Part shown: positions 2,884 to 4,184 of the stretch, piece after piece
Numbering within the stretch: the stretch's first letter is position 1
How the letters are laid out: each line of letters opens with the position of its first letter
DNA from: a virus
Reading direction: 5' to 3' (one strand)
Length of the DNA stretch: 44,529 bases
Virus record (IMG/VR): IMGVR_UViG_3300045258_000119
Location: 1 to 44,529 of that record
Made by a program: the position numbers and the translations under genes
Notes under the pieces: model-generated
Database searches by the model: none
Told to the model about the DNA's origin: nothing
What the model saw: the letters and a program-made list of their open reading frames with translations, nothing else

Positions 2884-3342
2884 ATGGGATACATGACGGA
2901 CGGCCTGACGTTCAACACGCTGCGCGGCGGCAACCTCGCGCGGCTCCCGCAATTCAAGGACGCGCAAGGTCGCCTCTCGCACCCCGGTAAGGACGGCGAG
3001 GATTGGTCGCTGAACGATTGGATGACCGCCGTCACCGGCGAGGCGGGTGAGCTTGCGAACTTGCTCAAGAAGGTTCGGCGCGGCGACTTCACGCTCGAAG
3101 AGAAGCGTGGCGACATTGCCGACGAACTAGCCGACGTGGCGATCTATCTCGACATTCTCGCCATGCGCTGCGGCGTCGATCTTGGCCGCGCCATAATGAG
3201 CAAGTTCAATCGCACGTCAGAGCGCGTCGGTAGCTCTATTCGTATCGACGCCGAGGACTGGCACAACGATTTCAACGCCGCACCGCAATGGTGCTCCACA
3301 CCTGCCGATGCGAAGTTGGAAAGCGACGCAGGTGAACATTGA
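2884..3342 (+). CDS. MazG-like nucleotide pyrophosphohydrolase, 152 aa
   Basis: Proteins of the all-alpha NTP pyrophosphohydrolase superfamily (MazG, dUTPase-2) hydrolyse NTPs or dNTPs to NMP and pyrophosphate, or act on (p)ppGpp-related signals. The metal-binding signature is visible: GEAGELANLLKKVRRG (the ExxE helix, about residues 57-72), then ELADVAIYLDIL (about 83-94), giving the EExxD-type acidic set. Phage versions of this length are common, and their proposed roles include adjusting nucleotide pools and blunting starvation responses. ATG at 2884 follows GAAGGAGTAG. It ends on the start of the methyltransferase gene, so the two are probably coupled. Confidence 0.85.
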   Translation: MGYMTDGLTFNTLRGGNLARLPQFKDAQGRLSHPGKDGEDWSLNDWMTAVTGEAGELANLLKKVRRGDFTLEEKRGDIADELADVAIYLDILAMRCGVDLGRAIMSKFNRTSERVGSSIRIDAEDWHNDFNAAPQWCSTPADAKLESDAGEH

Positions 3343-4184
3343 TGCTGCGCGTCTTGGATCTGTTCAGCGGCATCGGCGGGTTTTCGCTTGGCCTTGAGCG
3401 CACGGGCGGATTCAAGACGGTCGCGTTTTGCGAGATCGATCCATTCTGCCGGCGCGTGCTGGCGAATCATTGGCCGGGAGTGAAGTGCTACGAAGATGTC
3501 CGAACCCTTGACGCCCCTACTCTTCAGCGAGACGGAATTGCCGTTGACGCGATCTGTGGCGGGTTCCCCTGCCAAGACATCTCGAGCGCTGGAAAGCGCG
3601 CTGGCCTCGCGGGTGAGCGCTCTGGGCTCTGGGGAGAATACTCGAGGCTCATTGGCGAATTACGACCACGCATCGCAATCGTGGAGAACGTCTCAGACTT
3701 GCGCGCTCGAGGGTTTGGAGACGTTCTCGGAGATTTGGCCGCGCTCGGGTACGATGCTGTCTGGGAAAGCATTCCAGCTTCAGCCCTTGGCGCCCCTCAC
3801 CGACGCGATCGGGTTTGGGTCATTGCCCACGCCAACAGTTGGCGACAGCAAGAGCGCGCGCAATTCAACGGCGCGACGCAACAAGATTCCACCGACCGGG
3901 ATTCACGCCGGCGACACGCTGACGGATTGGGTTACGAAGTGGCCGACGCCGACAGCCAACCGCAGGAGCGGCCTTCAATCGCATGGCCGGAACGCGATCC
4001 TTGGGAGTTTGAACCCGATGTGGGTCGAGTGGCTCCTCGGCTACCCGGCGACGTGGACCGCCTTCGCGGTCTCGGCAACGCGGTCGTCCCGCAAATTCCG
4101 GAGCTGATCGGCAACGCCGTTCTAGCAAGCATGGGCCTCAAGGCAGCGGTTGGCCAAATTGAATCGGATGGAGGTGAGCGGTGA
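3342..4184 (+). CDS. dcm: C5-cytosine DNA methyltransferase
   Basis: Transfers methyl from S-adenosylmethionine to C5 of cytosine in DNA. Motif I is DLFSGIGGFSLGLE (residues 6-19). Motif IV is GGFPCQDIS with catalytic Cys77. Motif VI is ENV (115-117), motif VIII is RRDRVWVIA (154-162), and motif X is GLGNAVVPQ (243-251). At 280 aa it is short but complete, with a small target-recognition region at about 165-240, as is usual in phage orphan enzymes. ATG at 3342 overlaps the MazG stop (TGATG). Likely roles are protection from host restriction or altered gene expression; the recognition site cannot be read from sequence. A second gene-like frame lies inside it at 3496-4107. Confidence 0.93.
   Translation: MLRVLDLFSGIGGFSLGLERTGGFKTVAFCEIDPFCRRVLANHWPGVKCYEDVRTLDAPTLQRDGIAVDAICGGFPCQDISSAGKRAGLAGERSGLWGEYSRLIGELRPRIAIVENVSDLRARGFGDVLGDLAALGYDAVWESIPASALGAPHRRDRVWVIAHANSWRQQERAQFNGATQQDSTDRDSRRRHADGLGYEVADADSQPQERPSIAWPERDPWEFEPDVGRVAPRLPGDVDRLRGLGNAVVPQIPELIGNAVLASMGLKAAVGQIESDGGER
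3496..4107 (+). CDS. Protein encoded out of frame inside the methyltransferase gene, 203 aa
   Basis: This frame is shifted relative to dcm and covers about residues 52-255 of that enzyme. Its translation is not random. It reads AKTSRALESALASRV (26-40), NYDHASQSWRTSQTC (55-69), LETFSEIWPRSGTMLSG (74-90), LAPLTDAIGFGSLPTPT (98-114), WPTPTANR (149-156) and GSLNPMWVEWLLGYPATW (170-187). From memory, these blocks in this order characterise phage proteins encoded beside or fused to cytosine methyltransferases (AKTS…WPRSGTM…LPTP…LNPxWVEWLMGxPxGW). ATG at 3496 has only a weak ribosome site (GAAG), so reinitiation or internal initiation would be needed. Family membership is strongly suggested by the motif string; expression is not shown. 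Confidence 0.7.
   Translation: MSEPLTPLLFSETELPLTRSVAGSPAKTSRALESALASRVSALGSGENTRGSLANYDHASQSWRTSQTCALEGLETFSEIWPRSGTMLSGKAFQLQPLAPLTDAIGFGSLPTPTVGDSKSARNSTARRNKIPPTGIHAGDTLTDWVTKWPTPTANRRSGLQSHGRNAILGSLNPMWVEWLLGYPATWTAFAVSATRSSRKFRS

Follow-up and report, generated by a model that had tools for sequence, protein, structure and literature searches.

A phage dcm gene read in two frames, very probably for the catalytic and recognition subunits of a cytosine methyltransferase

The window analyzed here is a phage record of 44,529 bases, in which portal, terminase, and DnaB genes are present. Its dcm locus very probably encodes, in two frames, a heterodimeric C5-cytosine DNA methyltransferase, in which one frame would provide a catalytic subunit (A) and the other a recognition subunit (B). 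Subunit A (positions 3342–4184, plus strand, as for all features below) is a Dcm-like large domain of 280 aa with motifs I–VIII and X, in which motif IX is absent. Subunit B (3496–4107) is a nested ORF of 203 aa that opens with ATG, and it is the proposed small subunit, responsible for target recognition and carrying motif IX. The comparisons below indicate that the nested gene is real and functional.

In the scheme that we propose, frame 0 supplies the catalytic large domain, with AdoMet binding and catalysis (motifs I–VIII) and the closing helix of motif X. The ATG at 3496 would start the +1-frame product internally, and this product would be the small domain, in which an N-terminal core is followed by two exchangeable target-recognition cassettes and then by motif IX. 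The two chains would pair, with B picking the DNA sites and A flipping and methylating the cytosine; the methylation presumably masks the phage DNA from host restriction. We take B to be the missing domain of A because motif IX occurs in B where A lacks it and is absent from B where A has it.

The two products and their shared DNA

Subunit A matches Pfam DNA_methylase with an E value of 1.8e-40, and a profile search places it in phrog_363 (E 1.4e-78). A preliminary description of this DNA had stated that dcm keeps motifs I, IV, VI, VIII, and X in its own frame, and all five were located: motif I is DLFSGIGGFSLG (aa 6–17), motif IV is GGFPCQDIS with the catalytic PC (aa 73–81), motif VI is VENV (aa 114–117), motif VIII is GAPHRRDRVWVIA (aa 150–162), and motif X, RLRGLGNAVVPQ, begins at aa 240. 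The PC of motif IV, the ENV of motif VI, and the large-domain fold identify A as a C5-cytosine methyltransferase. Of 258 unique loci, only 3 show a canonical motif IX pattern in the A frame. The AlphaFold2 model of A has a mean pLDDT of 78.6, with residues 1–175 ordered and motif X forming ordered helices, while residues 180–234 have pLDDT values <50 and are read as disordered. The best PDB fold match of the model is HhaI (E 2.9e-15 over 171 columns), and HhaI and HaeIII are the closest solved folds, at ∼171 columns and a TM-score of ∼0.55 by query length. In the model, the disordered gap sits where canonical enzymes hold the small domain. Immediately upstream, the stop codon of a MazG-like pyrophosphohydrolase gene (2884–3342) overlaps the dcm start (TGATG), and translational coupling of the two genes is likely.

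The 203-codon ORF that had been described in another frame over dcm residues 52–255 is confirmed, in the +1 frame of A and wholly within it. Its product belongs to phrog_1008 in a profile search (E 6.9e-24, 85.8 bits). No match to B was found in Pfam or NCBIfam, or in a PDB sequence search with the B profile, and AlphaFold2 models B alone poorly (pLDDT 57.7). The conserved N-terminal core of B (YDHASQSWRTSQ ... FSEIWPRSGTMLSGKAFQL; 3661–3780) is read from the same DNA as the stretch of A between approximately motif VI and motif VIII. Between this core and motif IX, members of the family carry modules, mostly one to three, that start with [W/L/F]PTP.

The B of the window has two such modules, each shared with different relatives. 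Cassette 1 (LPTPTVGDSKSARNSTARRNKIPPTGIHAGDTLTDWVTK; 3823–3939) is 83% identical to gp81 of Arthrobacter phage Linus in a stretch that A does not overlap, and its matches at 77–83% comprise the Phycisphaerales contig L090 (77%) and the Arthrobacter phages Linus and KBurrousTX. Cassette 2 (WPTPTANRRSGLQSHGRNAILGS; 3940–4008) is 90–95% identical to loci L015, L089, L108, and L002, and none of these four is a good match to cassette 1. In the Arthrobacter phages, the cassette is located downstream of the A gene in DNA that is not common to A, and the conservation of cassette 1 therefore does not come from Dcm. Discordant sharing of modules is the behavior of target-recognition domains, and we thus infer that the cassettes are exchangeable recognition modules.

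The C-terminus of B (LNPMWVEWLLGYP) is conserved and has the layout of motif IX, the element that organizes the recognition domain in canonical C5-methyltransferases. This block (LNPMWVEWLLGYPATW; 4009–4056) is near-invariant in the B family, with ∼9% of loci lacking an IX-like core in B by a loose pattern. When the B profile was aligned to single-chain enzymes with hhalign, the sole match fell on their motif IX, with an E value of 0.37 that is not significant alone. The two frames are complementary in this respect. A short A frame without motif IX, as in Salmonella, Porphyromonas, Paenibacillus, Bacteroides, Nodularia, and Klebsiella phages, is accompanied by an IX-like sequence in the +1 frame; where A carries LTPREC-RLQGFPD, as in the single-chain enzymes of Streptococcus, Lactococcus, and Roseobacter phages, no motif IX is present in the +1 frame. 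In the window, the predicted-disordered linker between motifs VIII and X of A (residues 181–234; 3882–4043) shares its DNA with the cassettes and motif IX of B, and motif X of A (RLRGLGNAVVPQIPELIG; 4059–4112) overlaps the end of B.

Selection on both frames and the start of B

To measure how much of B follows from the Dcm sequence, dcm was recoded synonymously, keeping the protein and its own codon usage. The nested frame stays open in 28 of 300 such trials. Against B profiles built without the scored locus and its close relatives, the B of the window scores 207 bits versus 74 ± 11 after dcm recoding, where the maximum is 107 (z 11.7); in ten loci, z ranges from 7 to 14. The signal extends along the protein: the N-terminal block of the window scores 122 bits versus 58 ± 10 after recoding of A (z 6.5), and z is 7.7 for the cassettes and 7.9 for motif IX. 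Across the ten loci, only one region of B, the middle of L003, is near chance. In the converse test, in which B was recoded synonymously, z is ∼10 for motifs IV–VIII of A (10.2 in the window) and 2.7–13.3 for motif X (13.3 in the window), and the linker between motifs VIII and X is weakly selected, with z of 2.9–5.1 (2.9 in the window).

Codon-position substitution patterns, which the preliminary description had proposed as a check, agree with these scores. Among related loci, the ratio of differences at codon position 3 to those at position 1 is 0.79–1.23 in the overlap versus 2.1–3.1 in the upstream, A-only part, that is, ∼1 inside the overlap and ∼3 outside it, as for two selected frames. 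These ratios hold for overlap divergence up to 0.40; beyond that, the A-only ratio falls to 1.46, where saturation is likely. Taken as sequence evidence, the recoding and codon-position results are signatures of two frames under selection.

An ATG is present near the family start of B in 215 of 258 unique loci, at a median A codon of 53. SD-like sites precede 35% of B starts versus 18.5% of control positions, and an ATG lies within 9 nt in 134 of 224 loci versus 106.5 ± 6.6 in recodings. In the window, the start codon of B is the ATG at 3496–3498; the upstream sequence ATCATTGGCCGGGAGTGAAGTGCTACGAAG was scored SD-negative, with no good Shine-Dalgarno site before this start. A start-marker test revealed no GAT enrichment at D-V codons able to create the ATG of B. 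On the family-wide patterns, internal initiation of B is likely.

Alternative readings and known systems

The least probable alternative, to which we assign almost no weight, is that the nested frame is an untranslated by-product whose similarity arises from the amino acids and codon usage of Dcm. It is true that dcm recodings still score 74 bits on the B profile and that the +1 frames of single-chain enzymes score 18–47 bits. However, the real sequences lie above all recodings in every one of the ten loci, the position 3 to position 1 ratio is near 1 in the overlap, and cassette 1 is strongly conserved in an ORF stretch free of A. The synonymous recoding and codon-position tests led us to reject a passenger frame. 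Very unlikely as well is a reading in which there is no internal start and ribosomes shift from A into the +1 frame to give an A–B fusion. Such a shift would fit the weak SD that precedes B in the window and the existence of phages with two split, overlapping methylase annotations. Against it, the B frame remains open and conserved over ∼100 codons before the recognition cassettes begin, and its ATG recurs at much the same place (A codon ∼53) with a frequency above that in recodings. The N-terminal core of B would not be under selection if the frame were entered by a shift near motif VIII.

Two further alternatives accept B as a protein and concern what it is. B might have an independent function, for example in anti-restriction or regulation, and merely share DNA with the methyltransferase without being a subunit of it, and the lack of detectable similarity of B to solved structures or Pfam families is compatible with this. 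Yet the complementary occurrence of motif IX in A and B argues against it, as do the relatives of B that carry motif IX followed by motif X, and phrog_116 and the Gordonia phage Gudmit, in which A, the cassettes, IX, and X form one chain; we consider an independent function unlikely. The preliminary description had favored an overprinted second family that became separate in other phages. A wholly new family that arose on dcm and later moved out would be consistent with the mostly separate ORFs of actinophages, which form one clade inside the nested diversity and may have moved out. This reading is nonetheless improbable in that form: the C-terminal half of B is the recognition and motif IX domain expected in every such enzyme, and single-chain relatives have that domain in the A frame, with no motif IX in the +1 frame. 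What survives of the overprinting claim is, probably, the N-terminal ∼105 residues of B, read from motifs IV–VIII, together with the disordered A linker between motifs VIII and X; the C-terminal half would be the enzyme's own missing domain. For the heterodimer, the likely origin is therefore a single-chain enzyme whose recognition and motif IX segment came to lie in the +1 frame; both frames would then have gained overprinted sequence, the N-terminus of B on A and the linker of A on B.

Two-polypeptide methyltransferases, which the preliminary description did not name and which leave its reading incomplete, provide the closest comparison. M.EcoHK31I consists of two polypeptides, with motifs I–VIII and X in the larger and IX alone in the smaller, and its predicted recognition domain is assigned to the larger subunit (PMC3404938). 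The window likewise has I–VIII and X without IX in A, and IX in the small subunit B. The recognition cassettes, in contrast, are assigned here to the nested subunit, and the window gene belongs to a phage, whereas M.EcoHK31I is part of a bacterial restriction-modification system and acts on YGGCCR; beside the window locus, no gene for a restriction enzyme was recognized. The frame layout appears to be alike as well, since B is coded in another frame (+1) wholly inside A, and the small polypeptide of M.EcoHK31I was reportedly found by Lee, Kam and Shaw in 1995 to be coded in another frame inside the large one. Searches of E. coli genomes and enterobacterial plasmids for the EcoHK31I locus gave no match. 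By analogy of motif and frame layout, we assign the window locus to the M.EcoHK31I kind. M.EaeI is another two-polypeptide C5-methyltransferase.

Other systems share single features with the locus. M.AquI alpha/beta is also a C5-methyltransferase split into two polypeptides, and its arrangement is matched by Peaches, phiBT1, Catdawg, and Klausavirus, in which A comprises motifs I–VIII and the second ORF (B′) the recognition region, IX, and X; the window differs in having motif X in A and B wholly inside A. Multispecific phage C5-methyltransferases of the M.SPRI type have tandem recognition domains, comparable to the variable number of exchangeable modules in B, but they are single chains without two-frame coding. 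The ShiLan insertion, a hidden HNH endonuclease in phage methylases, is similarly an out-of-frame protein within a phage DNA methylase gene (PMC11855218); it is, however, mobile and inserted in the third methylase frame, whereas B is an integral and universal partner in the +1 frame. The families phrog_1008 and phrog_363, to which B and A belong, are both labeled DNA methyltransferase, although the library keeps them as separate families without mention of two-frame nesting. A literature search, with most subscription journals outside it, gave no paper on the nested arrangement as widespread in phages. The kind is already known from M.EcoHK31I, and its breadth, the two-frame constraint, and the shuffling of cassettes appear to be undescribed.

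Distribution, variants, and annotation

The motif chain noticed earlier in the nested product is present and marks a conserved family. A tblastn search with the nested product returned 315 phage records, and 526 viral-contig relatives of B were found. In all 240 loci read, B is in the +1 phase of A; these comprise 80 viral contigs and 80 bacterial genome contigs selected by B and 80 viral contigs selected by A, the last set being not fully independent, as EPDVGRVA, one of its two DNA patterns, lies over motif IX of B. The expectation that ∼612 bp are shared by two conserved protein families, with homologues inside Dcm-like frames, is thereby borne out. The hosts span several bacterial phyla, and cyanophages and an archaeal plasmid are also represented. 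Judged from these searches, the arrangement is widespread among phages and prophages, and most annotations miss it or record only half of it. On balance we favor a broader view, in which short Dcm enzymes of phages and prophages across many phyla would normally be split over two frames, cassettes would recombine between phages though readable in two frames (as a recognition module in B and a tolerated disordered linker in A), and few conserved nested gene pairs in dsDNA phages would be as widespread as this one.

A common phage gene has seemingly been read in one of its two frames only, with annotations that give A alone, B alone, or an enzyme called possibly inactive. Codon optimization of a synthetic dcm of this type would abolish the second subunit, and the resulting enzyme would probably be dead. 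In addition, the family offers hundreds of natural replicates for the co-evolution of mutually binding proteins on the same DNA, and it suits the study of recognition-module swapping under a two-frame constraint; its interest lies in this prevalence and module shuffling.

The layout of the window recurs in Mycobacterium phage Nitzel, for example; the split is not identical throughout. In mycobacteriophages Peaches and Catdawg, the Klausavirus phages, and phiBT1, A ends after motif VIII and a +1 ORF carries the cassettes, IX, and X; the N-terminus of this ORF still overlaps A, in an M.AquI-like split. In Klausavirus and actinophage relatives, the cassettes, IX, and X are in a downstream, largely non-overlapping ORF. 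Motif X is in the small subunit in L004, L170, L173, and L174, while in the window it belongs to A. A tree of the A catalytic region groups the split-ORF variants in one clade (100/98) inside the nested type, in a topology where several deeper forks are weak. In Gudmit (L006, 2290–3672), frame 0 encodes the single-chain enzyme with cassettes, IX, and X, and in the +1 frame a conserved N-terminal part of B persists, together with cassettes, and ends at 3079; the locus may represent an intermediate, a sequencing indel, or a frameshift site.

Existing annotations vary accordingly with the half that was called. The annotation of the phiBT1 product gp9.1 describes a DNA methylase that "may be inactive"; at this locus (L173, 1808–2308 and 2136–2855), the +1 frame contains an unannotated ORF with cassettes, motif IX, and motif X, and we identify this frame as the missing half of gp9.1. 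In Vibrio phage 1.236.O (L175, 1839–2537), L005 (2432–3112), and L001 (392–652), B alone is annotated, as a hypothetical protein, and the overlapping Dcm frame has no gene call. Kagunavirus annotations list both frames, as "C-specific methylase" and "Mte8-like protein". In L104 (2913–4705), the nested A/B pair occurs twice in tandem, and the A frame of the second copy is degraded. In L065, L121, L131, and L139, both frames move by the same offset partway through the gene, which is what one indel would produce, whether it reflects a sequencing error or an inactivated gene. Finally, the B′ ORF of Arthrobacter phage Linus (L170, 1362–2762) has an exceptionally long series of PTP-type cassettes ahead of IX and X, which suggests a highly multispecific enzyme.
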